The position numbers were made by a program, and so were the translations under genes. DNA of 64,000 nucleotides from an uncultured Latescibacterota bacterium (GTDB lineage Bacteria; Latescibacterota; UBA2968): assembly GCA_951812755.1 (NCBI GenBank), contig OX638329.1:605339-669338 (forward strand). The letters are read 5' to 3'. Shown one piece after another: positions 11,698 to 64,000 of this stretch; the stretch's first letter is position 1; each line of letters opens with the position of its first letter. The notes under the pieces were generated by a model, which saw only the letters and a program-made list of their open reading frames with translations, did no database searches and had not been told where the DNA came from.

Positions 11698-14600
11698 ATG
11701 GTGGGTCAAAGATTTTTGTTTTTTATATGGATGCTCATTCTTTGTCTGAATGCCGAGGTTTTTGCGGGCGAGGCCAGGCATGTGTGGACGTCCTTTCGGC
11801 AAGAAGATGGGCTGGCGCACAATGTGGTGACGGCTGTGGTGCAGACGCCCGATGGGGCGATGTGGTTTGCCACGCTGGGTGGGGTGTCGCGCTATGATGG
11901 GCGTTCATGGAAGAAGTACGGGGTCGAAGATGGGTTGCCGGGAAACGCTGTTCAGGATCTGGTGGCCGCGCCCGATGGGGCATTGTGGGCTGCTGTGGGA
12001 CGGGGTTTTGGTCGTCAAGCGAGACAAGGGCTGGCTTATTTTTTCGGCGAGGAATGGAGAGGTATTGATACGCCAGCAGAATTGAGAGGGCGAGGGGGCT
12101 TGCGCCAAATTTTGGGGCTGGATAGCGGTCGCGCCTGTCTGGTGACCGATGAAGGTTATTTGTTGCGCTTTGATGGCGCGCAGCTTTATGTGGTGAGCCT
12201 GAATGGTCAGCCAATTCGAGGCGTTCAGAGTTTGATGGCCGATGCAAATGGAAAAGTTTGGGTCGCTTATGGGGGGCGAGGTGGTAATGTTTTGTTTGGT
12301 CCTGGAATGGGACAGGGGGGACGAGGTGAACCGGGTGGTCGGGGCAGGCGTGGCGGTTTTAGGGGGGCGGACGGTTCCGATGGTGGTAGAGGACGCGGTG
12401 AACCCGGTGGTCGGGGCAGGGGTGGTGGTTTTAGGGATATGGACGGTTCCGGTGATGGTAGAGGACGCGGTGGGCGCCCTCCTGTGCCGGGTGTCCGGCA
12501 GGGGGGTGGAAGACCTGGCGGGTTTGCTCGAGGCATGGGTTTATTGGATGTGGATACGGGCGAGTGGACGACGATAGCAGATATGGACAGTTTGGAGAAT
12601 GTGTCGGTGTTGGCGATGGGGCAGAGTGACGATGGCGCGCTCTGGTTCGGTACCGATGAGGGCGGGCTTAAGCGATATCATTCGGGACAATGGGAAACAT
12701 TTACAACTGAGGATGGGCTGCCTTCCAATCGGGTGCAGGTTATTCGCTTTGCACAAGATGGAACGCTTTGGATTGGCACGCCGGCTGGTGCCGCTTCTCG
12801 AGATGCGAATGGACAATGGCGAATTTTTACAGAGCGCGAGGGATTGCCCAATAGCTATGTGGTCGATATCTGTATTGCTGCAGATGGAGCAATTTGGGTG
12901 GGTACGCGCGGTGGGGTTGCGCGGTTGGGTCTTTCGGGATGGTTGCACCATAGGAGTTGGCCGGGGATGAATGATCGCGGTGCTTCGATTTTCGCGCTCG
13001 ATGAAAGGGGTCAGCTCTGGGTAGGCAATGATGCGCTTTACAATTTTGAACAGGGTTCCTGGCATGTAGCACGCGAGTTAGAGGACGATGTGCGCGGGCG
13101 GTTGGTCGATTTGTTTGTCGATGGAAAAGGTGGTCTCTGGGCTGTAACGCCGTTTCAATTGTTGCGTTATGATGGTGCGTTGTGGGAGATGATAAGGCCA
13201 GATAGGCGCATAGGATTGCCTTTTCGAGATGTGTGCCCTGCACAAGATGGCGGTGTGTGGGCAATTGCGCGCTCGGGTGTTCATCGATTCGATGGACAGG
13301 TATGGACGGCTTTTTCTACCGCCCAGACTCAGGGTCTGGCGCAGATAGAGAGCAATCCCGACAGGTCCGGCATGTCGATTTGCGAGGCGAGCGATGGCAG
13401 TTTGTGGCTGGGGCAGGTAGATGGTCTGGTGCATGTGGTGGATGGGGAGCGGCGCAAATACACGGTGGCTGATGGGATACCCGGTGGACCGATTACTGTG
13501 GTTGCCGAAGATATTGGTGGACAGATATGGGTAAGTTCACCGCTCGAGGGTGTGGCGCATTTTAATGGGCAGAGGTGGCGCCGCGTGCCGGGCACAGATC
13601 AGGCGCAGTTTAATGGGGTCGGTCGGATATTTCCGGCGAATGATGGCACGGTGTGGCTGGCTTCGCCGATTGATGGCGCGATTCACACCGATGGGTTTGC
13701 ATGGGTGCGCTATACGGTTCAAGAGGGGTTGCCGAGTACACAGGTTTGGGATGTGGGACAGGATGCTAAGGGCAATCTCTGGTTTGCGACGTCTGGTGGG
13801 TTGGGTTGTTATAATCCCGATGGCGATGCGCCCGAAACACTTCTTTTGGCTCCGCCAGTTCAAATTGCGCCGTATCAAAATGCGTTGTTTGAATTTTCGG
13901 GGCAGGATGTGTGGAAGCAGACGCCAGATGGGTCATTGCAGTATTCATGGCGGCTCGGTGAGGGGGCGTGGTCGGGTTTTTCGCGCAATAATCGGGTTTT
14001 GTTGGAGGATCTGGACGCGGGTGTTCACAAATTTGAAGTGCGCGCTATGGATCTGGCTTTTAATGTGGATAAGACATCTGCTGTGCAGGTGTTTGAGGTG
14101 TTGGCGCCTGTGTGGCAACGGCCCTGGTTTGTGGGGTTGAGTGGTGTTTCGCTGCTCATTGTGCTGGTCACGACGGGATATGCGTTTCAAAAGCACAAGC
14201 GCTGGCGCATAGCACAGACGCAGTTGATTGACGAATTGGAGACGGAACTTCAGGAAGCCCACGATATGCAGATGGGGCTGTTGCCCCGAGCCCCCGTGCG
14301 CGAAAAGGGTTTTGAGGTGGTGGGCAGATGTTTGCCGGCCAATCACGTCGGCGGTGATTATTTTACGTATTTCTGGTTGGACGACGATCGGAAAACACTG
14401 GGGTTTGGGGCCGCAGATGTGTCGGGTAAGGCGATGCAGGGTGCTGTGCGGGCTATGCAATTGAGCGGGATGTTGCACTATGAGGTTCGCGCGGCACAGA
14501 CGCCGATAGATGTGCTGCGGAATTTGAATATTGTTTTGCAAGAGCAATTTGATGAGGCGAGTTTTGTGACGTGCTGTTTGGGGACGCTGGATTTAGAGAC

Positions 14601-14979
14601 CGGGGAGATGGTTTTGGCCAATTCCGGGCATCCCTATCCCTATCGGGTGTCTGTGGGGGGTGATTTGCAGATGATAGAATTGATGTCTGTACCTCTGGGT
14701 ATGACATTGCCGCCCGAGGTCGATACCGAACCCAAAGAGGCGCGTGTGTTTTTGGATTTTGGCGATATGCTGGTGCTCTACAGCGATGGGGTGACGGATA
14801 TGCAAAATGCTGCGGGGGAGTTTTACGAGGAGGCGCGCCTGGAAGTTTTGCTCAAAAAACACGCGGGCGCGAGTGCCGATGTTTTGATCGATACGGTGAT
14901 CGATGATCTGATCGAATTTCGCGCGTCGTCGGCACAAACAGATGATGTGACGCTTCTGGTTATTAAGAGGTCGTTTTAA
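11698..14979 (+). CDS. Two-component-type propeller sensor with C-terminal SpoIIE/RsbU PP2C phosphatase
   Basis: 1093 residues; ATG preceded by AAGGAG. Order: signal peptide (1-24); many reg_prop blades of the DGAMWFATLGGVSRYDG type to about residue 730; a Y_Y_Y domain (about 740-800, YSWRLGEGAWSGFS); one transmembrane helix (about 806-827); a short coiled linker; then a SpoIIE phosphatase with QMGLLP, VGGDYF, AADVSGKAMQGAV, LYSDGVTDM and TDDVTLL, giving all expected metal-binding Asp residues. It probably senses a periplasmic or extracellular ligand and dephosphorylates a cytoplasmic anti-sigma-antagonist-like partner, which is not encoded nearby. Residues about 193-280 are an unusual Gly/Arg-rich insertion in one blade. 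Confidence 0.9.
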   Translation: MVGQRFLFFIWMLILCLNAEVFAGEARHVWTSFRQEDGLAHNVVTAVVQTPDGAMWFATLGGVSRYDGRSWKKYGVEDGLPGNAVQDLVAAPDGALWAAVGRGFGRQARQGLAYFFGEEWRGIDTPAELRGRGGLRQILGLDSGRACLVTDEGYLLRFDGAQLYVVSLNGQPIRGVQSLMADANGKVWVAYGGRGGNVLFGPGMGQGGRGEPGGRGRRGGFRGADGSDGGRGRGEPGGRGRGGGFRDMDGSGDGRGRGGRPPVPGVRQGGGRPGGFARGMGLLDVDTGEWTTIADMDSLENVSVLAMGQSDDGALWFGTDEGGLKRYHSGQWETFTTEDGLPSNRVQVIRFAQDGTLWIGTPAGAASRDANGQWRIFTEREGLPNSYVVDICIAADGAIWVGTRGGVARLGLSGWLHHRSWPGMNDRGASIFALDERGQLWVGNDALYNFEQGSWHVARELEDDVRGRLVDLFVDGKGGLWAVTPFQLLRYDGALWEMIRPDRRIGLPFRDVCPAQDGGVWAIARSGVHRFDGQVWTAFSTAQTQGLAQIESNPDRSGMSICEASDGSLWLGQVDGLVHVVDGERRKYTVADGIPGGPITVVAEDIGGQIWVSSPLEGVAHFNGQRWRRVPGTDQAQFNGVGRIFPANDGTVWLASPIDGAIHTDGFAWVRYTVQEGLPSTQVWDVGQDAKGNLWFATSGGLGCYNPDGDAPETLLLAPPVQIAPYQNALFEFSGQDVWKQTPDGSLQYSWRLGEGAWSGFSRNNRVLLEDLDAGVHKFEVRAMDLAFNVDKTSAVQVFEVLAPVWQRPWFVGLSGVSLLIVLVTTGYAFQKHKRWRIAQTQLIDELETELQEAHDMQMGLLPRAPVREKGFEVVGRCLPANHVGGDYFTYFWLDDDRKTLGFGAADVSGKAMQGAVRAMQLSGMLHYEVRAAQTPIDVLRNLNIVLQEQFDEASFVTCCLGTLDLETGEMVLANSGHPYPYRVSVGGDLQMIELMSVPLGMTLPPEVDTEPKEARVFLDFGDMLVLYSDGVTDMQNAAGEFYEEARLEVLLKKHAGASADVLIDTVIDDLIEFRASSAQTDDVTLLVIKRSF

Positions 14980-15080: not shown

Positions 15081-16964
15081 ATGCGGATTTTTGCCGCGGT
15101 ATGTGTTTTGATGGTGCTTCAGAGCAGTGCCGCATTGGCTCAAAATGAGGCTTCGTTTGGCGTGATGGTGGAGCCAAAGGCGGCGCGCGTTGGGGAGGCT
15201 GTTGCGGTTTGGATTGATGTGGATCTTTCCGACGACTGGCATATTTATTCGGCGACCACACCTCCGGGTGGTCCTTATCCCACGGAGATTGCGCTATCGG
15301 GCGAGGCGTTTCGGCAGGTGGGGGCGGTGATTCAGCCAAAGCCTATTGTGGAGTACGATCCAAATTTTGATATGAATGTGGAATATTATCACCCCAAAGT
15401 GCGGTTTGGGGTGCGGGCTGAGGTGGGTGAGGGGATGCCGGGCGAGCGGGTGCTGACGGGGGAAGTGACGTATATGCTTTGCAATGCGACGCAGTGTTTG
15501 CCGCCAAATACGTACACTTTTGAGGTTCCCGTGATGGTAGAAGCGGGACCTGCGCGGGCTGAGTATGTGTTTTCTGCTGTTGAAGCGCCCGCGGTGCCGT
15601 TGGATGGCACGGGTAGTGTAGCCGATGTTGAGCGTGCGATTACAGAGGGTTTGAGCGCGTTTTTGTACCTGTCTTTGTGGATGGGTTTTCTGGCTTTGCT
15701 CACGCCCTGTGTGTTTCCGATGATTCCCATTACGGTGTCGTTTTTTACCAAGCAGGAAACGCAGAGCCGAAGGGAGTCTGTCACCAAGTCGCTGGCTTAT
15801 TGCGGGGGTATTATTTTTACGTTTACCGGGCTGGGTATGGTGTTGGCGGCGACTCTGGGCGCGTCTGGTGCGGCTCTGTTTGCGGCCAATCCCTGGATCA
15901 ATTTGTTGATTACTGCGATTTTTGTGGCTTTTGCGCTGGCATTGTTTGGGTTGTTTGAGATTCGATTGCCTTACGGTTTGCTCAATAAGTTGAATCAGGT
16001 TCAGGGGGGAAGTTATGGCGCGATTCTAATTATGGGGTTCACGTTTTCTCTTACGTCGTTTACGTGTACTGCGCCTTTTGTCGGCACATTGCTGGTGCTG
16101 ACGGCTCAGGGAACGTGGGCGTGGCCCATTTTGGGCATGCTGGTATTTTCGGCTGCTTTTGCCTCTCCGTTTTTCTTTTTGGCACTTTTTCCACAGGCGC
16201 TTTCTTCTCTGCCCCAAAGCGGTGGTTGGTTAAATTCCGTGAAGGTGGTGATGGGGTTTTTGGAATTGGCCGCTGCGTTGAAATTTTTGAGCAATGTCGA
16301 TCTGGTGTGGCAGTGGGGTATTATTTCGCGCGAGGTCTTTATTGCGGGGTGGATCGCGATCTTTTTTCTGTGTGGTTTTTATTTGTTGGGAAAGATCCGG
16401 TTGCCGCACGATTCTGTGCTCGATACGATTGGTCCGTTGCGTTTGCTGGCGAGTAGTGGGTGTTTGGCTTTTGGGCTGTATTTGATGACGGGTCTTTTTG
16501 GTGCTCCCCTGGGCGAATGGGACGCATTTTTCCCGCCTTATGGGAGTTATGGCGAGATTGCCAAGATAAGGAGTGGTGAACCCGAGCTGACCTGGCGCGA
16601 TGATTATGAAGCGGGTTTGGCAGAAGCAAAGGCGACGAACAAACCGGTATTTATCGATTTTACGGGCTATGCGTGTACGAATTGCCGCTGGATGGAGGCG
16701 AATATTTTTCCCGAAAAGGAGGTGCACGCGCTATTAAAGCAGTTTGTACGGGTTCAGTTGTACACAGATGGACGGGGGGAAAAATACAAGCGCAATCGCG
16801 ATTTGCAGGAGGCTAATTTTGGTACGGTTGCTCTGCCTTTGTACGCGGTTATGACACCCGATGGAAAAGAGATTGCACATTTTCCAGGGATGACGCGCGA
16901 TGTGAATATCTTTGTCCGCTTTTTGAAACAGGGGCTTAGTCCGACTGTTGCAAGTGTGAAGTGA
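15081..16964 (+). CDS. dsbD: Thiol:disulfide interchange protein DsbD
   Basis: 627 residues; AAGGAG before the ATG. Signal peptide 1-20; N-terminal DsbD-alpha domain (about 25-150) with a Cys pair in LCNATQCLPP; a multi-helix membrane core (about 190-465) with the two conserved intramembrane Cys in LTPCVFPMIP and SFTCTAPF; and a C-terminal thioredoxin domain with ACTNCRW (about residue 530). It carries electrons from cytoplasmic thioredoxin across the inner membrane to periplasmic thiol proteins. The last ~80 bp of the gene are duplicated just downstream as part of a 124-bp tandem repeat. Confidence 0.94.
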   Translation: MRIFAAVCVLMVLQSSAALAQNEASFGVMVEPKAARVGEAVAVWIDVDLSDDWHIYSATTPPGGPYPTEIALSGEAFRQVGAVIQPKPIVEYDPNFDMNVEYYHPKVRFGVRAEVGEGMPGERVLTGEVTYMLCNATQCLPPNTYTFEVPVMVEAGPARAEYVFSAVEAPAVPLDGTGSVADVERAITEGLSAFLYLSLWMGFLALLTPCVFPMIPITVSFFTKQETQSRRESVTKSLAYCGGIIFTFTGLGMVLAATLGASGAALFAANPWINLLITAIFVAFALALFGLFEIRLPYGLLNKLNQVQGGSYGAILIMGFTFSLTSFTCTAPFVGTLLVLTAQGTWAWPILGMLVFSAAFASPFFFLALFPQALSSLPQSGGWLNSVKVVMGFLELAAALKFLSNVDLVWQWGIISREVFIAGWIAIFFLCGFYLLGKIRLPHDSVLDTIGPLRLLASSGCLAFGLYLMTGLFGAPLGEWDAFFPPYGSYGEIAKIRSGEPELTWRDDYEAGLAEAKATNKPVFIDFTGYACTNCRWMEANIFPEKEVHALLKQFVRVQLYTDGRGEKYKRNRDLQEANFGTVALPLYAVMTPDGKEIAHFPGMTRDVNIFVRFLKQGLSPTVASVK

Positions 16965-17133
16965 GAGGGCCTCACACAAAGACACAGAGACACGAAGATA
17001 CAAGAAGTGAGGGATGACGCGCGATGTGAATATCTTTGTCCGCTTTTTGAAACAGGGGCTTAGTCCGACTGTTGCAAGTGTGAAGTGAGAGGGCCTCACA
17101 CAAAGACACAGAGACACGAAGATACAAGAAGTG
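16886..17133. repeat. 124-bp tandem duplication including the dsbD 3' end
   Basis: Two copies (16886-17009, 17010-17133) that look identical. Each holds the last codons of dsbD, its stop, and a cctcacacaaagacacagag tail. The second copy's coding part is a non-functional gene end. Confidence 0.92.
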
Positions 17134-17469
17134 GGAGAAAGACTGTCATCGCGGCATGGTGTTAAGCAGCACACAAAGACACAGAGACACGAAGATACAA
17201 GAAGTGGGAGAAAGACTGTCATCGCGGCATGGTGTTAAGCAGCACACAAAGACACAGAGACACGAAGATACAAGAAGTGGGAGAAAGACTGTCATCGCGG
17301 CATGGTGTTAAGCAGCACACAAAGACACAGAGACACGAAGATACAAGAAGTGGGAGAAAGACTGTCATCGCGGCATGGTGTTAAGCAGCACACAAAGACA
17401 CAGAGACACGAAGATACAAGAAGTGGGAGAAAGACTGTCATCGCGGCATGGTGTTAAGCCGCGATCCAG
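17134..17469. repeat. 73-bp minisatellite ending in a complete REP-like palindrome
   Basis: Four head-to-tail 73-bp units start at 17134, 17207, 17280 and 17353. A fifth partial unit starts at 17426. In units 1-4 the REP-like palindrome is broken after TTAAGC and joined to acacaaagacacagagac; the last unit runs on to the full palindrome (17437-17469). There are no unique spacers, so it is not CRISPR. Confidence 0.92.
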
Positions 17470-17481
17470 AAGGTTTTTTTA

Positions 17482-18732
17482 TTATGATAGGCCGAGAAAT
17501 ACGCCCAGGATGAGGCCCACCACGCCGAGTAGTGATAGGAGCAGGGCACCAATGGCGATTTGAAGCATTTTGGGTTCAAGGTGGTCGAGATAGGTTTCGA
17601 GTGTTTCGATGCCCGAGCGCACAGCGCGTTCGATGGGGTCGGGGAGGTGCTCGACAAAGGGTATTTTTTGCCGAGAGATTTCGTCGATGTATTGAATATT
17701 TTTGATGTTGTGACGGGCATTGAAGGTGTGTTCGACGAATTTGCGGATTGCGAAACGCTGTACCGGGTCGTGAATTTCGGATAGGCAAAGGGTTTGTGCA
17801 TCAATGGTGTTGGACAGTTTGAAGCAGTGTGTGGTCTTGTCGGGGTCGTCGGGGTCGGGTTCGAGTTCGCCTTTGACGACGCGCCCTAATATGGTGAGGT
17901 CGTGATAGTTGAGGTAGTGATAGCGTCCGCCTTTTTCGCGGCCCAATAGGCTTTCGATGCGTTGGCGCAAGATATCGGGATCGTCTTTGCCCTGGCGAAG
18001 ATGTTCGGAGATTTTGATGTTGAAGCATCGCGCATAAAATTTGAGAAAGTCCCGGACAACGGGCGAGGTATAACTGCCTTTGGCGTTGATGAGACGACGC
18101 ACAAAGCCGAGGTAACGGGGGTTTGTGTAGAGTCGTGCGGCGATGTCGAATGAGTCTTTGTCCGATTCGCGTATGTGTGTTTTGATGGCGGCGTCGATTT
18201 GTACGCTCATCTGGATTAGTGCCATGTCTTCGTCGTCTTCGCGCACGATGGACCGGGCTGGGTCGTCGGGTTCGTCGCGGGCGAGAAAGGGCCTGGTTTC
18301 GCCCGAGGCAAAGCTGCCAAGCCCGCCTTCTATGCCCTGCCTGATCATGATTCGAGAAGCGGCTTCTTCTATTTCCGCTTCTGTTTTTTCTATGAGTTCT
18401 TCTGGGAGTTCTGCGTTTTGTTGGGGTACAAGTGCAGAGATGTTGTCTGCAAAGATTTGAACTTGAGATTTGTTGTTGAATACATCGAGATAGGGTTGTT
18501 GCATTACTTCGGGCAACAGATGCTGTGTGAGGGTGTTGCCCCGCTGTCCTTTGAAGGCGGTGTAGAGTGCTTCGTGCAGTGAGGTGAAGGGAACCACGCG
18601 CGTTGCGACGATTACGCGATCTGTGCTGTATGTGAAGATATAGAGATTTTCCCAATAGCACTTGCGGTAGTATGGTCGGCCGGTTTTGGAGGAGAAAGCG
18701 AAGCGGTATTTTGGATCGACAATGCGTTCCAT
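17482..18732 (-). CDS. Hypothetical protein with C-terminal membrane anchor
   Basis: 416 residues; AGGAGG sits five bases before ATG 18732. No family is recognised. The body is soluble-looking and charged, with an acidic stretch (REDDEDMALIQ) around residue 165. The C-terminal ~25 residues (IAIGALLLSLLGVVGLILGVF) form a single hydrophobic helix with almost nothing after it, suggesting a tail-anchored protein with its bulk in the cytoplasm. The gene diverges from the FolC fusion gene. Codon use matches its neighbours, so it appears to be a native gene. Confidence 0.75.
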   Translation of the reverse strand: MERIVDPKYRFAFSSKTGRPYYRKCYWENLYIFTYSTDRVIVATRVVPFTSLHEALYTAFKGQRGNTLTQHLLPEVMQQPYLDVFNNKSQVQIFADNISALVPQQNAELPEELIEKTEAEIEEAASRIMIRQGIEGGLGSFASGETRPFLARDEPDDPARSIVREDDEDMALIQMSVQIDAAIKTHIRESDKDSFDIAARLYTNPRYLGFVRRLINAKGSYTSPVVRDFLKFYARCFNIKISEHLRQGKDDPDILRQRIESLLGREKGGRYHYLNYHDLTILGRVVKGELEPDPDDPDKTTHCFKLSNTIDAQTLCLSEIHDPVQRFAIRKFVEHTFNARHNIKNIQYIDEISRQKIPFVEHLPDPIERAVRSGIETLETYLDHLEPKMLQIAIGALLLSLLGVVGLILGVFLGLS

Positions 18733-18796: not shown

Positions 18797-20914
18797 ATGA
18801 ATTATTTTCGGAGCAATCGGTTTCTCAATACGTTGCCCGATTGGGAAACGGGTGAGCCGATAGAGGGTGGGCTGGAAAATTATTTGCCGCGTGTGCGCGC
18901 GCTGTTGCACCGCATGGATAATCCCCAGGCGCGGTTTGACTCTGTTATTGTGGGGGGGACAAATGGCAAGGGTACGGTGAGTTCTTTGCTGGCTGAGTTA
19001 TTGCGGGCAGCGGATTTTCGCGTGGGGCTTTATACGTCGCCGCATTTGCACACGGTGCGCGAGCGGATACGTGTTGATGGCGAGGTGCTCGCGCGCGCTG
19101 TGTGGGCCGAAGGCGTCGCGCATTTTTACGAAAAAAGCCGCGATTTTGAGCGCGAAGGCTGGGGGGCGTTTAGCAAGTTTGAGGCGCTCACGGTTTTGGC
19201 GGCGCATCACTTTGCGCGGGTCAATGTGGATTGGGCTGTTTTTGAAGTGGGGCTGGGTGGGCAATTTGACGCGACCAATGCGTGGGATTCAAAAGTTGCT
19301 GTGTTGACGGCTATTCATCTGGATCACACGGATGTGTTGGGCGATACGCTGCATGAGATTGCGGCGGATAAGGTACATATTGCGCGATCGGGAAGGCCGC
19401 TGTTTACGGGGTCAGGGCAGGCAGCCGAGGTTTTGAAGTTGTTGAAGAGGGCGTGTGTGCATCGGGGTGCGGCGTTGCATGTGGTCGATACGGAAATGGA
19501 CGATATTGCGGATCGACCGGCTACTTTTCGAGAGAATGCCGCGCTATCAGTGGCCGTGGCGCAGCATATTGTAGATGGGTGCGGGATGGTGTTGCCGGAT
19601 GAACGGGTGCGGGATGTGATTTTGAATGGTTCTTTGCCCGGGCGATTTGAGGTGATTCGGAAGGCGCCTCCTTTGATTTTAGATGGCGCCCACAATCCGG
19701 ATGCGGTTCGCGCATTGGTCCGCGATTTGCAACTTCTGTCGGATCAGTGGCGATTTGTGGTGGGTGTTAATAAAGGGCACGATGCACGGGGTATTTTGCA
19801 GGCAATTTCGCCCCTGGCTGCCGAAGTTGTTTTGATGCAGTCGGCGCATCCCAAAGCTATTTCTGTGGCGAGCTTGAGATCGCGGGTTCCCAAAGGGCTG
19901 TGCGTGCGGTGTGAAACAGGGGGATTGGATTTTTTGATGCAGGCATCCCGACGACCTACGTGTGTACTCGGGTCACTACATCTGGTTGCGTTGGCACGCG
20001 AGGTTTTGGATTTGCCCGGGGAGGCGGATAGTTTTGGGGAGGATGTGATTTTAGAGAGTTTGCGGTGTCTTGAAATCGCGTGTCGCAATTTGGGCGTGGG
20101 GTATGAGGCGGTGTCGGCAGATGGCAATGTGATTCGGGTGGAGAGGGACGGAAAACCGCTGTATTTTTTGCGAAATAAACATCCGTTTAACGATTATGTT
20201 TCTGGAAAATTGGCCGAGGACAAAGGGTATCAATACGAGTTGTTTGGTCGGGCGAATATCACCGTGCCCAGGACGATGACGGTGTTTAACCCTCTATCTG
20301 ACCGGCGGTTTGATCGGTATAAGACGCATGCGTCTGTCGCAGATATTGTGAGCGATGTGGTGCAACACATGTCGTTTCCGGTTGTGCTGAAACGCAATCA
20401 CGGGTCTATGGCACAGGGTGTGTATTTGGAGACGAATGCAGGGGATTTGCAATCGCGTTTGCAAGAATTGTGTGAGGAAAGCAGCCGATTTGACAATGTG
20501 TTGTTGATCCAGGCTTATGTTGAGGGGCCTGAGTATCGCATTGTGGGCAGCGAGGATGAGTTGTTGCTCGCTTATGAAAAGCAAAATGATTCGGATATTG
20601 AGGAAGAGGATATCAATCCCCTGCATCGGGCGGGGGGCAGGGCGGTCGCGGTTGTGGATGAGGGATCATTGGAGGATTTTCGCGCGTTGACACAGGCGTT
20701 AAATCGGGTGTTGGACTTGGGCTTTTACGCGGTTGATTTGATCGCGGGGTCCGATGGATTTTTTGTTTTGGAAGTGAATCCCAATCCTATATGTCACTTT
20801 TACAATGCGGATAATGGACGAGGCGATTTTGTGCAAATTTATCAGTATCTGGTACAGAAATATTTGCTGGGCAAGTGTCCCAGGGTGCCTGTTTTAAAAG
20901 GCGGTAAGACGTGA
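18797..20914 (+). CDS. FolC-like Mur ligase fused to a C-terminal ATP-grasp domain
   Basis: 705 residues, far longer than the ~420 of FolC. Residues 1-400 are folylpolyglutamate/dihydrofolate synthase-like: P-loop VGGTNGKGTVSSLLAE (about 51-66), LYTSPHLHTVRERI, EVGLGGQFDATNAW, and LDGAHNPDAVRAL in the C-terminal subdomain. From about residue 410 a second catalytic domain follows with ATP-grasp features: FPVVLKRNHGSMAQGV (nucleotide-binding Lys), QAYVEGPEYRIVG, and FFVLEVNPNP (Mg-binding Glu/Asn). Both halves ligate carboxylates to amines with ATP, as in cyanophycin synthetase, but there the ATP-grasp domain precedes the Mur-ligase domain. It may amidate or glutamylate one substrate twice. Function beyond ligase is not known. 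Confidence 0.88.
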   Translation: MNYFRSNRFLNTLPDWETGEPIEGGLENYLPRVRALLHRMDNPQARFDSVIVGGTNGKGTVSSLLAELLRAADFRVGLYTSPHLHTVRERIRVDGEVLARAVWAEGVAHFYEKSRDFEREGWGAFSKFEALTVLAAHHFARVNVDWAVFEVGLGGQFDATNAWDSKVAVLTAIHLDHTDVLGDTLHEIAADKVHIARSGRPLFTGSGQAAEVLKLLKRACVHRGAALHVVDTEMDDIADRPATFRENAALSVAVAQHIVDGCGMVLPDERVRDVILNGSLPGRFEVIRKAPPLILDGAHNPDAVRALVRDLQLLSDQWRFVVGVNKGHDARGILQAISPLAAEVVLMQSAHPKAISVASLRSRVPKGLCVRCETGGLDFLMQASRRPTCVLGSLHLVALAREVLDLPGEADSFGEDVILESLRCLEIACRNLGVGYEAVSADGNVIRVERDGKPLYFLRNKHPFNDYVSGKLAEDKGYQYELFGRANITVPRTMTVFNPLSDRRFDRYKTHASVADIVSDVVQHMSFPVVLKRNHGSMAQGVYLETNAGDLQSRLQELCEESSRFDNVLLIQAYVEGPEYRIVGSEDELLLAYEKQNDSDIEEEDINPLHRAGGRAVAVVDEGSLEDFRALTQALNRVLDLGFYAVDLIAGSDGFFVLEVNPNPICHFYNADNGRGDFVQIYQYLVQKYLLGKCPRVPVLKGGKT

Positions 20915-24632: not shown

Positions 24633-25283
24633 ATGAAAGAGCAAATTTACGGTCTTGTACTGGCCGCGGGTATGGCGCGGCGCATGGGGTCAACCAAACA
24701 GTTGTTGCCTTTTGGCGATCGGACGATTCTTCAAGCGGTGGTCGATACACTACACGGTGCTGATCTGGCTGGCGTTGTGGTGGTTTTGGGGCACGATGCA
24801 GATGCTGTGCGCGAGAGTTTGCGCGGGCGGCCCGTGCTGTGTTGTGTGAATGATGCCTACCGCGAGGGGATGTTTTCCAGTGTGCTTTGCGGTCTCCACC
24901 ATTTGCCTGCAGATGCAGATGCTGTGCTTATCGCTCTTGGCGATCAGCCTCAGATTGAATTGCGCGTTGTTCAGGCTGTGGTGCGGGCATACCGCGAAGG
25001 CGACCGGGGTATTGTGATTCCCATATCGGGTGGCAAGCGCGGGCATCCGGTGTTGATCAATTTGTCGCGTTACCGGGGCGAGATTTTGGAGCTTTCTGGG
25101 GATGAGGGTCTCAAGCCGGTTATGCGCGGACACCCTCACGATACGCTGGAGGTGCCGGTAGATGATGAGGGAATTTTGCGGGATCTGGATACGCCAGAAG
25201 ATTATCGATCTGAGATTAAAAGGCGTGAGAGGGCCTCACACAAAGACACGAAGACACAAAGACATAAAGATACAAAGACATAA
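24633..25283 (+). CDS. MocA-like nucleotidyltransferase (molybdenum cofactor cytidylyltransferase type)
   Basis: 216 residues. The N-terminal GLVLAAGMARRMGSTKQLLPFG is the nucleotide-binding signature of the MobA/MocA superfamily; VLIALGDQPQI carries the metal-binding Asp; GKRGHPVLI and LRDLDTPEDY complete the family pattern. Family members attach CMP or GMP to molybdopterin, or act on other phosphosugar-like alcohols. No molybdoenzyme gene is nearby. The C-terminal ~18 residues (RASHKDTKTQRHKDTKT) and the stop codon are encoded by the intergenic tandem repeat, so the native C-terminus has been overwritten or extended. Confidence 0.87.
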   Translation: MKEQIYGLVLAAGMARRMGSTKQLLPFGDRTILQAVVDTLHGADLAGVVVVLGHDADAVRESLRGRPVLCCVNDAYREGMFSSVLCGLHHLPADADAVLIALGDQPQIELRVVQAVVRAYREGDRGIVIPISGGKRGHPVLINLSRYRGEILELSGDEGLKPVMRGHPHDTLEVPVDDEGILRDLDTPEDYRSEIKRRERASHKDTKTQRHKDTKT

Positions 25284-25387
25284 AGATACAAAGACATAAA
25301 GATACAAAGACATAAAGATACAAAGACATAAAGATACAAGACGTTAAAGGTACTCGTCATCGCGGCATGTTTAAAGCCGCGGTCCAG
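25229..25387. repeat. cacaaagacac repeat, 16-bp tandem array and REP-like palindrome
   Basis: Begins with gagagggcctcacacaaaga, shared with the tract after dsbD. It continues as a tandem array of the 16-mer agacataaagatacaa (about four to five units) and ends with a REP-like palindrome at 25356-25387. The same order (cctcacacaaagac word, then palindrome) is seen at 16965-17469. Confidence 0.88.
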
Positions 25388-52196: not shown

Positions 52197-55100
52197 TCAG
52201 GATACTTTCTTACCAAAATTATCGACAAAAATCAGAAAATCACTAACTCCAATCACACCATCCCCATCCAAGTCAAACCGTGCGTCATACCCCACATCCT
52301 CCTGACTGAACCCAAACTGATCGACAAAGAGCAAAAAGTCGGAAATACCAACAATTCCATCGCCATCAAAGTCGGGTGTAGGGGCTGACGTAGGGGTGAC
52401 ATACTGCGACATATCCCACAGCAAAATTGTGCCGTCACGTGATCCCGAAACGAGTTCTTTGCCATCGGGTGAAAACGCCACGGACTTAACGCTACCCGTA
52501 TGCCCTTCAAACGTGGCAACCTCTGTTCTGGTCGCTACATCCCATAGCACAACCTCAGGATCTGATCCTGAAGCCAGCAGCGTCCCATCGGGAGAAAATG
52601 ATACAGAGTTGACAGAACGCGTATGCCCTGTAAGCGTGGCAATATTACGCCTTGTCCCAACATCCCACAATTTGATCGTTTCATCTTGGGCCCCTGAAGC
52701 GAGTGTTGTGCCATCTGGTGAAAATGCAACAGAATAGACGGCCTCCGTATGTCCCTTAAAAGTAGTGACATTTGATTGCGTCTTAATATCCCATATTTTA
52801 ACCGTGCGATCATATCCGCCTGAAGCCAGTGTTGTGCCATCTGGTGAAAACGATAGAGAAAGTAAAGAATTGCGATGCCCTTTAAGTGTAGCGATTGTTG
52901 TTCGTGTTGCAACATCCCACAGGATGATATCGCGTTTACTCTCAATTGCAAAAATTTTACCATTCGGCGAGAATGCAACAAGACCCCCGAATAACGCATT
53001 ATTCTCATCAATAGTGAAAATATTTTGTCCTGTTGCAACATCCCACAGCTTAATATAATCTGGATATCCAGATGCGAGGATTGTACCATCGGGCGAAAAG
53101 TCCATAGAATCGACCCACATAAGATATTCAGAGAGAATAGTTGCGTTTTTCGTAGCAATATCATACAGCGTGACATCAAAAAGTGACCCTAAAGCGAGCA
53201 TTGTGCTATTTGGCGCGAATACCATAGAACGGACACGATACGCCTTAATTGTAGCGGTATTTTGCCCTGTTGCAATATCCCATAGTTCAACGCTTTCCCG
53301 TGACGCACCAGCGATGGTTGCACCATCTGGCGAGAACGCTAAAGAAATGACATTATCCTTATGTAAAAATACAGTCATCTTTTCTTTTCTGGCAACATTC
53401 CATAGGGTAATTGCATTTTTATACATTGAAGCGAGGATTGTACCATCTGGCGAGAACGCAATAGAATAAATACTACCGCCAACTTCACCTTCTTCAGCAA
53501 AAGTGGCGATATTTTCCCGCGTCGCAACATCCCATAGTTTGACCTCATCACCCTCCGCTTCTGAGACAGCGAGCGTTGTGCCGTCAGGAGAGAACGCAAG
53601 AGAAAGAACCTGACTCGAATACCCTGCAAGCGTAGCGATATTGGTTTGCGTTTCAACATCCCACAGTTTGACCTCTTGCCATGACCCAGAAGCAAGGATC
53701 TTTCCGCTTGGCGAGAAAGACACAGATCCAACACCGCCATTATGCCCCCAAAGCGTGGCAATGTGTGTTTGAGTCGCAACATCCCACAACTTGACCGTTC
53801 CATCCCTAGCCCCTGATGCAAGCATTGTACCGTCGGGGGAGAATGCAACAGCCTCAACAGATCGACTATGCCCTGTAAGTAGTTCAATTTCACGCCAGGT
53901 CGCCACATCGTAAAGCCAGATACCAATAGCACTTGCCACAGCGAAAAGTTGACCGTCTGGCGAAAACGCCAATGCTTTGCCTATGCCATCAATGACGCCT
54001 CTCCCAAGACGAACTATTGCACCATCGGGCAAATGCCATGTCTGGTAATCACCGCCCATGATTGGTATAGCAGGTGTACCGACACCCACAGCATTAAAAG
54101 TCACAGGATCAAAGCCAGCGACAGATACCTCAACCGTATTTGTTCCCGCAATAGGACCAAGCGTGAGTGTACTCTGCGCCCTGCCATTGGCATCCGTCGT
54201 TGTGTTCTCAACCGTGAACCTCCCGCTGAGCTTTCCGTCGCCTGTGGTGACTGTAAATGTGACTGGAATATCTTCAATCCCGGCACCATTCTTATCACGC
54301 ACCTCAACCATCAACAGGTTTGCCAATAACGAACCGGGCGCACCTTGTTGGTTATCGCCTGAATTTTTCACGAATGTTAAAGGATAGTTTTTATCAATGT
54401 ACTGCACAATATCCCACAGTTTGACGCTTTTATCAGCAGAGGCAGAGGCAAGGAGAGTTCCATCCGGCGAAAAGGCCACCGAGCCAACCCAATGCGTATG
54501 TCCCTTGAACGTGACGATATGCGTCCCTGCCCCTACGTACCACAGTTTGACGCTTTTATCAGCAGAGGCAGAGGCGAGGAGAGTCCCATCCGGCGAAAAC
54601 ACCACCGATTGGACATCGCTCGTATGCCCTTCGAGGGTGGCCGTATTCTCCCTTGTCGCCACGTCCCACAGCATGATCGGACCCGTCACTGTCCCCGAAG
54701 CGAGGAGGCTCCCATCTGGTGAGAACATCACTGACTTGGCCCCCACTGTATGCCCTTCGAGGGTGGCCGTATTCTCCCTTGTCGCCACGTCCCACAGCTT
54801 CACCGTGCCATCCCACGACCCCGAGGCGAGGAGAGTCCCGTCGGGCGAAAACGCCACCGAAAAAACAAAGTTTGCATGCCCTTCGAGGGTGGCCGTATTC
54901 TCCCTTGTCGCCACGTCCCACAGCTTCACCGTGCCATCCCACGACCCCGAGGCGAGGAGAGTCCCATCCGGCGAAAACGCCACCGAAGGAACATGGTCTG
55001 CATGCCCTTTAAGGGTGGCCACCTCCGTTTGCGTCGCCACGTCCCACAGCTTTACCGTGTTAAGCTCCTGCACGGACGAGGCGAGGGTGTTCCCGTCCCT

Positions 55101-57257: not shown

Positions 57258-60200
57258 TCAACGCTCCCAAGAGGCCTCATCCGGGATGCCGTGGCTGGTC
57301 AGGATCTCCAGTCCTGGTTCTGATAGCAAAAGGCTGGCTGCAGGCCGCTTCGCAGCCGCCTGTGTGTCCCGCAGGATGCCCCGGACATTTCCCGTGCCGC
57401 GGTCCAGCAGGAGTGTAGCCGAGAGGCCGCCTTCGCCATCCAGGATGGAAACGCCTTCAGGGCCCGAAAGCGCAATGCGCGCCAGCCTGCCCGCCCAATC
57501 GTCCCGTACTGGAAGAATGAAGGCGAAAGCGCCGCCCTTGCCTCCGCACCCGTACTCAGGGATGCCATAGGGCAAGCTGAACAGGTTGTTGCCGTTGTCA
57601 TCCTCGCCCGTGAGCGTGTACGGACCGTCTATCCGCGGCAGGGAAGGCGGGGCACTGACCGCGAAAGCCGGTTCGAGAAAGGGTTTTTCATTCTCGTCCA
57701 GCCCACCCCAAATCAACAGGCCTCTCGTGGGGGGCGTGTAGGACGCCGCCAGTGGCGCGCTCTTGGCTCGAGAGCGGTGGGCAAGTGCCCTGGTAAACGA
57801 GTAGTCGCTGATCCATTGGGGATCGCAGTATGTCATCAGATCCGACGTTGCGGGGCTTACCAGCGATTTGTTGACGAAATCGTATCCCCACGCGCCGATG
57901 GTCCCGTCTTCATAGGGGTATTCCGGATCCGGACCTCCTGCGCCACATCCCGGGGCGTGTAACAGACTCAGGTTGTGTCCGAGTTCGTGCGCTATGACGT
58001 TCCCGTCGAGAATGGACTGACTAATATATCCACCTATTCGCGCTATTCCTCGCAGGCGACTTTGACCCACGCTTCTGAAGATGCCCATATAATACCCCTT
58101 CGCGCCTTCCATGGCATAAATCAACGCAGTTTCGGGCCCCAATTTGCCAGAAGCGTCCGACGTGGGATCCACAGAAGTCAATACCGGCTCATGAACCGTC
58201 AGACGGAACTCGTTCACCGGCAGGATATCGCGGGTCAGGCGGAACAGATCGGATTCGGACGACAGGCCCTCGGTTTGTGTCAATACGGAACGATCCGGGT
58301 TCTCTTCCCAAAGAAAGGGTATCAGCGTCAACTCAAAAGGCGGCACGGACCGCACGTCCAGAGCCGTGCGACCCGTCTGGGGCAGGCGGGTGACGATGCC
58401 CAGAGCCGTATCCAGGGTCTGGTTGGGATCGATTTCGACCACCATCTCCAACCCCGGCATCACGACGGAGCCGGGCACCACCGCGTTGGCTGAATTTAAT
58501 AGTGACGCCTCGTTGACCTGCCGGGGGATATTCGTGGTCTGGCCCCTGATGTTCGCCGTGTGTACCTCGACCCCGTCCCTGTAGAAGGTAGCCCGCACGG
58601 GGGGCATGGTGGCATTGACCTCCTGTTCAGCCGTGACGAACACGCGCAGCAGTGCGGCTTCGCCAGCCATTAGGGGTACGGGATATTCGAGTGATTGCGT
58701 GGCCTGCACCAGATAGGCCGCGGCTTCGTCGGAACGGGCGCAGTTGGGCACGCGACTGAACGGTATTGCCCTCAGCCACGTCAGGAACCCGGGGTCCTGC
58801 GGTGAACACAGGAGTGTTTCACTCAGTGTCAGAGATTCAAGGGTGAGACCCGTAAGGGCGTTGGGCAGTGTTCCAGAAAGGGCGCCGTTAAAGCCGAGGT
58901 TCAATGTTGTGAGATTGGCGAGTTGTCCCAGTTCCTGTGGGATATTTCCCGATAACTGGTTTGTGGATAGATTCAGTTCCTCGAGGTTGGCGAGTTGTCC
59001 CAGTTCGGAAGGAATGTTGCCCGATAGCTGGTTTGTGGATAGATTCAGTCCTTCGAGATTGGTGAGTTTCCCCAATTCCGCAGGCAGGTTGCCGGTCAAC
59101 AGGTTTTTGCCAAGGTCCAACCATGAGAGATTGGTCAACCGACCCAGTTCCGGAGGTATATTGCCTGATATTTGGTTTGAGGAGAGATGTAGCCCATAGA
59201 GGTTTTTGAGTTGTCCCAGTTCCTGTGGGATATTGCCGGATAACTGGTTGGTGGATAGATTTAAATTTCCGAGGTTTTTGAGTTGTCCCAATTCCCTGGG
59301 TATCTCGCCCGTTAGCGTGTTATTTTCTATCCATAATGTTTCGAGGTTTTTGAGTTGTCCCAGTTCCGGGGGTATGTTGCCGGTGAGGAAGTTATCGACA
59401 AGCCATAGCTTTCTGAGGTTTTTGAGTTGTCCCAGTTCGGTGGGTATCTCACCAGTCAGGCTATTGTACCACAGCGTCAGGCTTTCGAGGTTGGAGAGTT
59501 GCCCCAGTTCCGCAGGTATCTCCCCGTCCAACGGGTTGTAAGAAAGATCCAATGTTCTGAGGCTAGTGAGATGTCCCAATTCCGACGGGATATTGCCGGT
59601 CAATTGATTTTCGCTAAGGTCCAACCCTTCAAGATTGGAAAGTTGCGCCAGTTCGGTGGGTATATTGCCTGTCAACTTATTATACGCGAGAATCAGGCTA
59701 TCCAGATTGGCGAGATGTCCCAGTTCCTGTGGGATATTGCCCGATATCTGGTTTTTGGACAGATTCAGATCTGCGAGACTGGTGAGTTTCCCCAATTCCG
59801 GGGGTATGTTGTCGGTCAACTGATTTGTGGACAGATTCAGCGATTCGAGATTGGCGAGTTGCGCCAGTTCTACTGGTATCGTCCCTTGCAGGTTGTTGTC
59901 ATTCAGAGACAATTCGGTCACGCGCTCGCTGGCATCTGTGGTTACGCCATACCAACCGCCGAGGGGCGCGTCGCTCGCCCAATTCGTCGCGTTTGTCCAG
60001 TTTGCTCCTTCCGTCCCGCTGTACAGCGCGACCAAAGCGTAATAATCCAGGCGGGCGTCGGTACACTGGGCAACCTCGCTTTCCCGTATTCCATCGAGCC
60101 ACGTCTGGAATTCGTCGCGGGGGGGTGCGCACAGCCGCGTTTCTTCCAGTTCGAGAGATTCGAGAGTGAGTCGCGTAAACCCCTGGGGCAATGGACCGGA

Positions 60201-61871
60201 CAGGGCCGCGTTGCCAGCGAGGTTCAGTGTTCTCAGGTTGTCCAAATTGCTCAGTGAAGGGGGAAGGAGACCGCTCAGGTTGTTGTCCCTCAGGTTTAAT
60301 TCGGTCACGCGTCCGTCGGCATTGGTGGTCACGCCATACCAATCGTCCAGAGGCTCCAGGGTCGTCCAGTTTTTGTTGTTCGTCCAATTCGGTCCGTTCG
60401 TCTGCTTATAGAGCGCGATCAACGCATCCCGTTCCGGGTCAGCGCAGTGGGTACCTCCCCTTTTTTCGGGAATACTGTCGAGCCATTCCACGAATGCGCC
60501 GGTCAGAGGTACGCACATCCCGGTGTCTGCCAAATAGAGTATTTCCAGAGAGAGGTCTATGAGTGCCGGAGGCAATGGTCCCGATAGATCGGCGTTTCCA
60601 CTGAGAATCAGTTGGGTGAGATTTGTGAGTTGTGCCAGTTCAGTTGGAATCGTCCCTGTCAACTGGTTCCCGCCAAGGTTCAGAAATGTTAGATTTGTGA
60701 GTTGTGCCAGTCCCGCTGGAATCGTCCCTGTCAACTGGTTCCCGCCAAGGTTCAGAAATGTTAGATTTGTGAGTTGTGCCAGTTCAGTTGGGATCGTCCC
60801 TGTCAACTGATTAAAGCCAAGGTTCAGAAATGTTAGATTTGTGAGTTGTGCCAGTTCAGTTGGGATCGTCCCTGTCAACTGATTAAAGCCAAGGTTCAGC
60901 CATGTTAGATTTGTGAGTTGTGCCAGTCCCGCTGGAATCGTCCCTGTCAACTGGTTCCCGCGAAGGTCCAGAAATGTTAGATTTGTGAGTTGTGCCAGTT
61001 CAGTTGGGATCGTCCCTGCCAACTGGTTCACGTCAAGGAATAGCCATGTTAGATTTGTGAGTTGTGCCAGTTCAGTTGGGATCGTCCCTGTCAACTGGTT
61101 CACGCTAAGGCTCAGCGATGTTAAATTTGTGAGTTGTGCCAGTTCAGTTGGGATCGTCCCTGTCAACTGGTTCACGTTAAGGCTCAGATCTGTTAGATTT
61201 GTGAGTTGTGCCAGTTCAGTTGGGATCGTCCCTGTCAACTGGTTCACGCTAAGGCCCAGCCATGTTAAATTTGTGAGTTGTGCCAGTTCAGTTGGGATCG
61301 TCCCTGTCAACTGGTTTCCGTTAAGGTTCAGAAATGTTAGATTTGTGAGTTGTGCCAGTTCAGTTGGGATCGCCCCTTGCAGGTTGTTATCCCTCAGTCT
61401 CAAATGGACCACACGCCCGTTGGTGTCGGTGGTCACGCCGTGCCAGTCGCCGAGGGGCGCGGTGCTCAACCAGTTCTCTTTGTTTGTCCAGTTCGGTCCA
61501 TTAGTCGCCTCGTAGAGTCTGACCAGTACTGCCCTGTCGTCGAGAACCATCTCTTTGCCGAAGTTCTCCGTGAAGATCAGAAAATCGCTAATTCCAATTG
61601 TTCCATTACCATCCAGATCATACCGCGCTTCATATCCCTCATCACCCTGGCGCGACCCGAACACATCTACAAACAGCAAGAAGTCGGAGATACCAACTGT
61701 CCCATCGCCGTCAAAGTCGGGAGAGGGATTGGCGTTGTCGTTATTTTCATTAGACGAGACCGCAGGGGTTGTTGTGAGTTTGTCGTTTGCATTTGAACCC
61801 GTGGAGGCATAACCCACAAATGCCAGTAACACAAGGGTAATAATAAATAGGATCTCTTTTTTTAAAAACAT
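57258..61871 (-). CDS. Giant LRR surface protein with dockerin-like N-terminus and C-terminal zinc metalloprotease
   Basis: About 1537 residues from ATG 61871, with AAAGGG upstream. Signal peptide/lipobox-free leader (about 1-25); a paired calcium-loop module at about 48-107 (DFDGDGTVGISDFLLFVDVF, YDLDGNGTIGISDFLIF); then three blocks of plant-type LRRs, each introduced by LYxxTNGPNWTNxxNW and built of LTGTIPTELAQLTNLTxLxL-like 24-residue units. From about 1040 come non-LRR domains, and at about 1295 HELGHNLSLLHAPGCG, a HExxH...H zinc site followed by SDLMTYCDP. It is most likely exported; the LRRs would bind a protein or glycan and the protease act on it. Many LRR units are near-identical at DNA level. 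Confidence 0.88.
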   Translation of the reverse strand: MFLKKEILFIITLVLLAFVGYASTGSNANDKLTTTPAVSSNENNDNANPSPDFDGDGTVGISDFLLFVDVFGSRQGDEGYEARYDLDGNGTIGISDFLIFTENFGKEMVLDDRAVLVRLYEATNGPNWTNKENWLSTAPLGDWHGVTTDTNGRVVHLRLRDNNLQGAIPTELAQLTNLTFLNLNGNQLTGTIPTELAQLTNLTWLGLSVNQLTGTIPTELAQLTNLTDLSLNVNQLTGTIPTELAQLTNLTSLSLSVNQLTGTIPTELAQLTNLTWLFLDVNQLAGTIPTELAQLTNLTFLDLRGNQLTGTIPAGLAQLTNLTWLNLGFNQLTGTIPTELAQLTNLTFLNLGFNQLTGTIPTELAQLTNLTFLNLGGNQLTGTIPAGLAQLTNLTFLNLGGNQLTGTIPTELAQLTNLTQLILSGNADLSGPLPPALIDLSLEILYLADTGMCVPLTGAFVEWLDSIPEKRGGTHCADPERDALIALYKQTNGPNWTNNKNWTTLEPLDDWYGVTTNADGRVTELNLRDNNLSGLLPPSLSNLDNLRTLNLAGNAALSGPLPQGFTRLTLESLELEETRLCAPPRDEFQTWLDGIRESEVAQCTDARLDYYALVALYSGTEGANWTNATNWASDAPLGGWYGVTTDASERVTELSLNDNNLQGTIPVELAQLANLESLNLSTNQLTDNIPPELGKLTSLADLNLSKNQISGNIPQELGHLANLDSLILAYNKLTGNIPTELAQLSNLEGLDLSENQLTGNIPSELGHLTSLRTLDLSYNPLDGEIPAELGQLSNLESLTLWYNSLTGEIPTELGQLKNLRKLWLVDNFLTGNIPPELGQLKNLETLWIENNTLTGEIPRELGQLKNLGNLNLSTNQLSGNIPQELGQLKNLYGLHLSSNQISGNIPPELGRLTNLSWLDLGKNLLTGNLPAELGKLTNLEGLNLSTNQLSGNIPSELGQLANLEELNLSTNQLSGNIPQELGQLANLTTLNLGFNGALSGTLPNALTGLTLESLTLSETLLCSPQDPGFLTWLRAIPFSRVPNCARSDEAAAYLVQATQSLEYPVPLMAGEAALLRVFVTAEQEVNATMPPVRATFYRDGVEVHTANIRGQTTNIPRQVNEASLLNSANAVVPGSVVMPGLEMVVEIDPNQTLDTALGIVTRLPQTGRTALDVRSVPPFELTLIPFLWEENPDRSVLTQTEGLSSESDLFRLTRDILPVNEFRLTVHEPVLTSVDPTSDASGKLGPETALIYAMEGAKGYYMGIFRSVGQSRLRGIARIGGYISQSILDGNVIAHELGHNLSLLHAPGCGAGGPDPEYPYEDGTIGAWGYDFVNKSLVSPATSDLMTYCDPQWISDYSFTRALAHRSRAKSAPLAASYTPPTRGLLIWGGLDENEKPFLEPAFAVSAPPSLPRIDGPYTLTGEDDNGNNLFSLPYGIPEYGCGGKGGAFAFILPVRDDWAGRLARIALSGPEGVSILDGEGGLSATLLLDRGTGNVRGILRDTQAAAKRPAASLLLSEPGLEILTSHGIPDEASWER

Positions 61872-62936: not shown

Positions 62937-64000
62937 TTATCCCGAAGTACCAAAGCTGGCGGTAAAGATCAGAAAATCTCCGAATCCAATCGTCCCATCG
63001 CCATCCAGATCGTATTTTGCATCGTAATTAGAATCGCCCCGACTTGCCCCGAACCTCGCTACAAATGCCAAAAAATCTGCAAAATCAACCTGCTCATTCC
63101 CATCAAAATCGGGCGTGGGCGTCTTCTCCACACTACTACTCCATTCAGATACATCCCACAGCTTGATTGTTTCATCTACTGACCCCGAAGCAAGCGTCTT
63201 ACCACCATCAGGCGAAAAGGACACTGAAGCGACAGACCTCGTATGCCCTTCAAGGGTGGCGATATTTTGCCTTGTAGCAACGTCCCACAGCTTGATTGTG
63301 TCATCTACTGACCCTGACGCGAGCGTTCTACCATCAGGCGAAAAGGACACTGAAAGGACATTCCTCGTATGCCCTTCAAGGGTGGCGATATTTTGCCTTG
63401 TGGCAACGTCCCACAGCTTAATTGTGTCATCTACTGACCCTGACGCGAGTGTTTTTCCATCAGGCGAAAAGGACACTGAATAGACCCAACCCGTATGCCC
63501 TTCAAGGGTGGCGATATTTTGCCTTGTAGCAACGTCCCACAGCTTAATTGTTTCATCAGAAGACCCTGAAGCGAGTGTTTTTCCATCAGGCGAAAAGGAC
63601 ACCGACACGACAGAACTCGTATGCCCTTCAAGGGTGGCGATATTTTGCCTTGTAGCAACGTCCCACAGCTTAATTGTGTCATCAGAAGACCCTGAAGCGA
63701 GTGTTTTTCCATCAGGCGAAAAGGACACTGAATAGACCCAACCCGTATGCCCTTCAAGGGTGGCGATATTTTGCCTTGTAGCAACGTCCCACAGCTTAAT
63801 TGTTTCATCAGAAGACCCTGACGCGAGTGTTTTTCCATCAGGCGAAAAGGACACCGACACGACAGAACTCGTATGCCCTTCAAGGGTGGCGATATTTTGC
63901 CTTGTAGCAACGTCCCACAGCTTAATTGTGTCATCAGAAGACCCTGAAGCGAGTGTTTTTCCATCAGGCGAAAAGGACACTGAATAGACCCAACCCGTAT
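62937..64000 (-). CDS. WD40-repeat protein with dockerin-like C-terminus (5' part beyond window)
   Basis: The frame stays open to 64000, so the N-terminus is missing; about 354 residues are visible. They hold about seven and a half WD40 blades of the type VSFSPDGKTLASGSSDDTIK, each 42 residues and nearly identical, then SSSVEKTPTPDFDGNEQVDF and a second loop LDGDGTIGFGDFLIF, the same paired calcium-loop module as in the two giant neighbours. No catalytic domain is in view. DNA units alternate in a 252-bp higher-order pattern. It is likely exported like its neighbours. Confidence 0.88.
   Translation of the reverse strand, partial: TGWVYSVSFSPDGKTLASGSSDDTIKLWDVATRQNIATLEGHTSSVVSVSFSPDGKTLASGSSDETIKLWDVATRQNIATLEGHTGWVYSVSFSPDGKTLASGSSDDTIKLWDVATRQNIATLEGHTSSVVSVSFSPDGKTLASGSSDETIKLWDVATRQNIATLEGHTGWVYSVSFSPDGKTLASGSVDDTIKLWDVATRQNIATLEGHTRNVLSVSFSPDGRTLASGSVDDTIKLWDVATRQNIATLEGHTRSVASVSFSPDGGKTLASGSVDETIKLWDVSEWSSSVEKTPTPDFDGNEQVDFADFLAFVARFGASRGDSNYDAKYDLDGDGTIGFGDFLIFTASFGTSG

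Follow-up and report, generated by a model that had tools for sequence, protein, structure and literature searches.

Folate tails are commonly viewed as gamma-glutamyl chains made by FolC. RimK-type ligases carry out the same kind of chemistry as FolC ligases, and cyanophycin synthetase (CphA) holds one ATP-grasp and one Mur ligase in a single chain. Ferone reportedly found in 1986 that E. coli extracts make alpha-carboxyl-linked folylpolyglutamates; to our knowledge, no gene has ever been assigned to this synthesis in E. coli, and in excerpts of open-licence papers neither an assigned gene for alpha-linked folylpolyglutamates nor a FolC::ATP-grasp fusion turned up. FolC ligases add to the end of a tail, and there is evidence that an acyl phosphate takes part (PMC10861534); CofF puts a terminal alpha-linked glutamate on F420 once CofE has made the gamma chain (PMC8498797). 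MptN is the alpha-L-glutamate ligase of tetrahydromethanopterin and MyfB lengthens the polyglutamate of methylofuran (PMC8141765).

FolC and a RimK-like ligase share one reading frame

The stretch of DNA analysed here (the window) comprises 64,000 nucleotides of a contig from an uncultured Latescibacterota bacterium. At 18797..20914 (+) it encodes, from an ATG start to a stop codon, a single 705-residue frame in which a FolC domain is followed by a RimK-like ATP-grasp ligase. A sequence-only reading had given this frame with exactly these boundaries, and its two domain calls were correct. The FolC (dihydrofolate synthase/folylpolyglutamate synthase) domain, residues 30-403 (18884..20005, +), scored 274.8 bits against TIGR01499 (cut-off 162.65) and matched the PDB FolC 1o5z with an E value of 5.8e-48; Mur_ligase_M and Mur_ligase_C each exceeded their own Pfam cut-offs. 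The P-loop GGTNGKGT was found at residues 53-60 (18953..18976, +), in the first domain as the reading had placed it.

The C-terminal region, residues 406-705 (20012..20911, +), consists of a short linker and a RimK-like ligase with a short N-lobe, the ligase spanning about residues 415-690 of the protein. Its RimK-type core, residues 518-667 (20348..20797, +), scored 29.5 bits with PF08443 against a cut-off of 21. An AlphaFold2 model of the C domain (pLDDT 84.9) comprised a complete ATP-grasp, and how the two domains sit relative to each other was uncertain in the predicted model (pTM 0.61).

The fusion recurs across one class of uncultured bacteria

A genome-contig scan with six peptide patterns, which favour close relatives, returned 38 loci, 34 of which were full-length fusions at 44-97% identity; the other four were FolC-only or short matches. 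This recurrence rules out chance, and the bias of the patterns makes fusions outside the phylum possible. The relatives were labelled Candidatus Latescibacterota, with some Gemmatimonadota or unclassified. A profile of the C domain matched in 43 of 64 genomes of the phylum, all within the class of the window (43 of 47). Every one of the 44 C-domain matches lay in the same frame as FolC and behind it, and no free-standing C-domain gene was found by the profile search of the 64 genomes. A plasmid search with the C domain gave four records at 24-30% identity, annotated as RimK or D-Ala-D-Ala ligase.

FolC itself scored above the TIGR01499 cut-off in 45 of the 47 class genomes. The four class genomes without a C domain comprised one with an unfused FolC (G021), the two with no FolC match (G023 and G034) and one whose FolC reaches the contig end (G038); G029 was counted among the 43 on 49 C-domain positions ahead of a contig end. 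Since the contigs of G029 and G038 both stop there, loss of the C domain was rejected for these two genomes. Each class genome with FolC had one above-cut-off match, reported in G012 as two pieces of a single frame. The exception, G020, had two near-identical copies, one of them broken off; this second FolC was read as an assembly chimera, the copy being 99.5-99.6% identical to the region of the first contig up to the break. The fusion is not peculiar to one genome and recurs across one class of uncultured bacteria.

For residue-level comparison, 32 fusions were aligned: that of the window, 28 of the 34 from the genome-contig scan and three from a separate search. The six rows dropped (L008-L012 and L018) were similar to others. 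The mean column identity was 57% for the C domain and the same for the whole protein.

The fusion is the only FolC of its host

The host genome is 99.6% complete, with 6.53 Mb in one contig. It encodes FolK, with FolB directly upstream of folK and away from the fusion locus, and FolP (301 bits, cut-off 162.6). The only TIGR01499 match in the whole genome was the fusion gene, which was also the sixth of six Mur_ligase_M matches; the other five proteins look like MurE, MurF, MurC, MurD and an Mpl-like ligase. The absence of a second FolC, which the sequence-only reading had observed for the window, thus extends to the whole genome. In chlamydiae a CofE-type FolC2 takes the place of FolC (PMC1971073); no such substitute was found in the host genome. 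Since FolB, FolK and FolP are present with no other FolC and no CofE-type substitute, the fusion is almost certainly the dihydrofolate/folylpolyglutamate synthase of the cell. As the only FolC in a genome whose de novo folate pathway needs one, it serves folate, a role that the reading had also considered. Given this sole-FolC status, its FolC domain would convert dihydropteroate and glutamate into dihydrofolate. A substrate of the F420 type, reached through a CofE pathway, was rejected because the genome has no CofE homologue.

The ATP-grasp half keeps its catalytic residues

PF08443 matched 31 of the 32 fusions (E up to 0.001). Eight residues, K532, Q572, E579, R581, K595, D647, E659 and N661, were invariant in all 32 and aligned with K141, Q177, D187, R189, R203, D248, E260 and N262 of E. 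coli RimK. Among them are the ATP-grasp lysine K532 (20390..20392, +) and the Asp, Glu and Asn metal-ligand positions, D647 (20735..20737, +) and E659 and N661 in E659-V660-N661 (20771..20779, +). From general knowledge of ATP-grasp enzymes we take D647 to be the Mg-binding Asp, and E659 and N661 the Mg-binding Glu and Asn.

The two-ligase idea of the sequence-only reading, which loss of the ATP-grasp residues in relatives would have weakened, thus stands: all 32 relatives retain the catalytic residues of the two ligases, and each chain holds two complete ATP-dependent carboxylate-amine ligases. The second domain is highly likely to be an active ligase. The alternative that the domain is an appendage without catalysis, or with a regulatory role, is hard to reconcile with catalytic residues that are invariant among C domains at only 48-98% identity to that of the window, and we regard it as very unlikely. 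The reading had further held that a sole FolC with fully conserved folate-site residues would point to an ordinary FolC carrying an accessory domain; the gene is indeed the sole FolC, but the second domain keeps every catalytic residue and all fusions carry a Lys-to-His change in FolC, described below.

Family assignment of the C domain was less specific. In NCBIfam, the 32 C domains matched the RimK family (32, the sole family matched by all), LysX (31), two cyanophycin models (21 and 13) and MptN (2, E up to 0.001). For the C domain of the window all NCBIfam matches fell under their curated cut-offs, including TIGR00768, the RimK family alpha-L-glutamate ligase (55.8 bits, cut-off 143.4). 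It is therefore best seen as a subfamily of its own, and its distance from the RimK-family cut-off means that donor and acceptor are not readable from family. In Foldseek searches with the C-domain model, the first eight PDB matches were RimK (top E 4.4e-13), followed by ArgX, D-Ala-D-Ala ligase (Ddl) and cyanophycin synthetase. VIA-align gave LysX with Z 20.6 and rmsd 3.0 over 243 aligned positions, with many ties. Neither method cleanly separated RimK, LysX/ArgX, Ddl and CphA, the VIA-align Z of the first rows spanning 19.3-20.6, mostly as ties. The fusion thus shares the ATP-grasp fold and catalytic residues of RimK (the S6:L-glutamate ligase) and LysX/ArgX; it differs from them in its score far under the RimK cut-off, its short N-lobe, its union with FolC and the motif after the metal ligands, NPxC..YN..NGR (C666, Y669, N670 and G674 invariant), which replaces the SPG loop of RimK.

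These likenesses bear on the possibility that the ATP-grasp domain modifies an acceptor that has nothing to do with folate, for example the acidic C-terminus of ribosomal protein S6, and that its union with FolC benefits only expression or stability. The host S6 (L116) ends in an acidic tail with a C-terminal Glu, which makes a protein target of the RimK kind possible. The C domain of the fusion is moreover the sole RimK-type domain of the genome, and RimK, LysX and ArgX, which work on protein tails, are among its nearest families. However, E. coli has a gene of its own for RimK proper, the motif that follows the metal ligands does not resemble that of RimK, and the lack of a stand-alone C domain in 64 phylum genomes would be odd without a functional tie to FolC. 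On this evidence we consider an unrelated acceptor unlikely.

The sequence-only reading had also compared the protein to a reversed cyanophycin synthetase and raised a poly-amino-acid product as one possibility. The comparison holds for architecture, the same two folds occurring in the opposite order, but goes no further: the fusion scored 42.3 bits against TIGR02068, whose cut-off is 850, its Mur part is a FolC above the FolC cut-off, and RimK outscores CphA for its ATP-grasp part. It is not a member of the cyanophycin synthetase family. A secondary-metabolite or polymer ligase outside folate metabolism would fit the pairing of ATP-grasp and Mur ligase that CphA also has, as well as the presence of cyanophycin synthetase structures among the Foldseek matches, the first at rank 26. 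Yet the genome has FolB, FolK and FolP but no FolC other than this one, all 32 C domains match the RimK family, and no biosynthetic cluster was seen around the fusion. The polymer product was therefore not borne out, and we judge such a ligase highly improbable.

The FolC half differs from unfused FolCs at the glutamate site

The fusion shares the whole FolC profile with FolC/FPGS enzymes (TIGR01499; E. coli FolC, T. maritima 1o5z, M. tuberculosis 2vor). The P-loop residues G54, G57, K58 and G59 were invariant in 32 of 32 fusions, as were H177, K192, D296 and H299, so that the P-loop lysine, the metal/carbamate site and the C-domain DxAHNP residues of the FolC family are all in place. We take D296 and H299 to be further glutamate-site residues of FolC. 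FolC activity of the fusion is very probable.

Beyond the added C-terminal ligase, the fused FolCs depart from this family in three respects. The first is the lysine of the DKD motif (K336 in E. coli FolC), which was His328 (19778..19780, +) in 32 of 32 fusions and lysine in 16 of 16 unfused FolCs. The fusions therefore lack the basic Lys or Arg that an ordinary FPGS glutamate site has at this position, a residue that is not within the curated FolC family definition. Its counterparts R377 of human FPGS and K348 of MurD presumably help to bind the incoming amino acid. The unfused set comprised 13 of the 15 phylum genomes with an unfused FolC, two FolC-only loci of the genome-contig scan (L041 and L042) and E. 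coli FolC; the fragmentary G047 and G059 as well as L043 and L044 were omitted. Seven alignment columns separated fused from unfused FolCs under a rule by which the majority residue differs and is held by at least 90% of fused and at least 75% of unfused sequences, and only the DKD Lys/His column was absolute. Second, TIGR01499 scores were lower in fused than in unfused FolCs (256.7-301.7 versus 365.4-411.5 bits, with at least 396 of 400 profile positions matched). Third, the stretch from K192 to N247 was often shorter in fusions (50-70 versus 68-80 residues). In a tree with six unfused FolCs, the fused FolCs formed one group (support 100/99) whose stem measured 1.71 changes per column; the order of the outgroups is unsafe because their branches are long.

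The Lys-to-His change could mean that the glutamate handling of FolC itself is altered. One reading is a division of labour, in which FolC makes dihydrofolate only, its gamma-elongation being lost or reduced, and the entire tail is the work of the ATP-grasp domain, whether alpha-linked or made of a different amino acid. The absolute histidine, at a position that we take to be amino-acid-binding in human FPGS and MurD, speaks for it, as do the lower family scores and the long stem. However, dihydrofolate synthesis and chain elongation take place at one and the same site, and a change there does not have to part the two activities; D296 and H299, the two other glutamate-site residues, were kept in 32 of 32 fusions. 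Such a division is conceivable but rather unlikely.

A proposed reaction on the folate tail

The explanation that we favour overall, with about as much confidence as reservation, combines FolC with a tail-extending RimK-like ligase on one folate tail. The FolC domain would join glutamate to dihydropteroate and then probably lengthen the gamma-glutamyl tail through an acyl phosphate at the terminal carboxylate. The RimK-like domain would act as a second active ATP-dependent ligase on the same tail, activating a carboxylate at the tail end and adding one or more amino acids. That the folate tail is the acceptor is probable. The leading candidate for the added residue would be L-glutamate joined through the alpha-carboxyl, an alpha-linked bond whose chances we put a little below even. 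Because the two ligases are fused in a genome without another copy of either, the simplest meaning is that a gamma-ligase shares one folate tail with a further ligase, which probably forms alpha links.

The reaction would be the folate counterpart of those of CofF on F420, MptN on tetrahydromethanopterin and MyfB on methylofuran. The likeness lies in the proposed job, a RimK-type ligase adding glutamate to a cofactor tail; those three enzymes, unlike the fusion, are encoded by separate genes. It would also be the same reaction as the alpha-carboxyl-linked folylpolyglutamate activity of E. coli, where FolC is unfused. The union of FolC with a second, apparently working ligase suggests an unusual folate tail in the class, and a class-wide fusion whose halves never occur separately in that class serves as Rosetta-stone evidence for an action of such ligases on folate tails. 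The fusions form a candidate enzyme family for the synthesis of alpha-linked folylpolyglutamates. A more far-reaching version, which we advance tentatively and think doubtful, is that, after fusion, the Lys-to-His change reshaped the glutamate site of FolC and that the RimK-like half builds part or all of the tail, giving class-wide alpha-linked, mixed-linkage or non-glutamate folate tails. If this were true, the folylpoly-alpha-glutamate ligase that other bacteria use could be a member of this family. Overall, the interpretation of the sequence-only reading was partly supported.

Gene neighbourhood

No folate genes were found among the eight neighbours scanned beside the fusion, and a promoter and terminator scan gave nothing exceeding shuffled sequences. 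In 18 of 29 loci (L016, L017, L019, L020, L022-L026, L028, L029, L031-L035, L039 and L040) moaA lay immediately upstream, ending 3-90 bases before the fusion; it was absent there in the remaining 11, among which L027 is truncated on the upstream side. The L017 moaA was confirmed by NCBIfam, and MoaA domains were found by Pfam in L016 and L017. MoaA is the GTP 3',8-cyclase, and many of the moaA loci also carried a cystathionine gamma-synthase-like gene downstream of the fusion. The window itself encodes a MocA-like NTP transferase at 24633-25280 (+), whose best model, the DVU_1551 family, gave 177.9 bits, under its cut-off of 315; its KDTKTQRH-type tail overlies a 16-base tandem repeat at 25240-25339. 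A molybdopterin substrate, prompted by moaA and this transferase, was set aside because the genome needs FolC and has no other.

Divergent from the fusion, a gene at 17485-18732 (-) encodes a 416-residue protein whose C-terminus is hydrophobic and which neither Pfam nor NCBIfam matched; among the 29 loci, only L007 and L013 had frames resembling it. Nearby, a 73-base unit occurs five times with 100% identity (17097-17459), and beside it a perfect duplication of 124 bases (16886-17133) extends over the end of a DsbD-like gene. A further gene, at 11698-14979 (+), fuses a two-component-regulator propeller to a SpoIIE phosphatase and contains a Gly/Arg-rich 72-base repeat at 12319-12472. Long arrays of tandem repeats, with units of 72 and 126 bases, lie at 58911-61377, 54412-55059 and 63205-63984, and our guess is that they are leucine-rich and WD40-like coding repeats.
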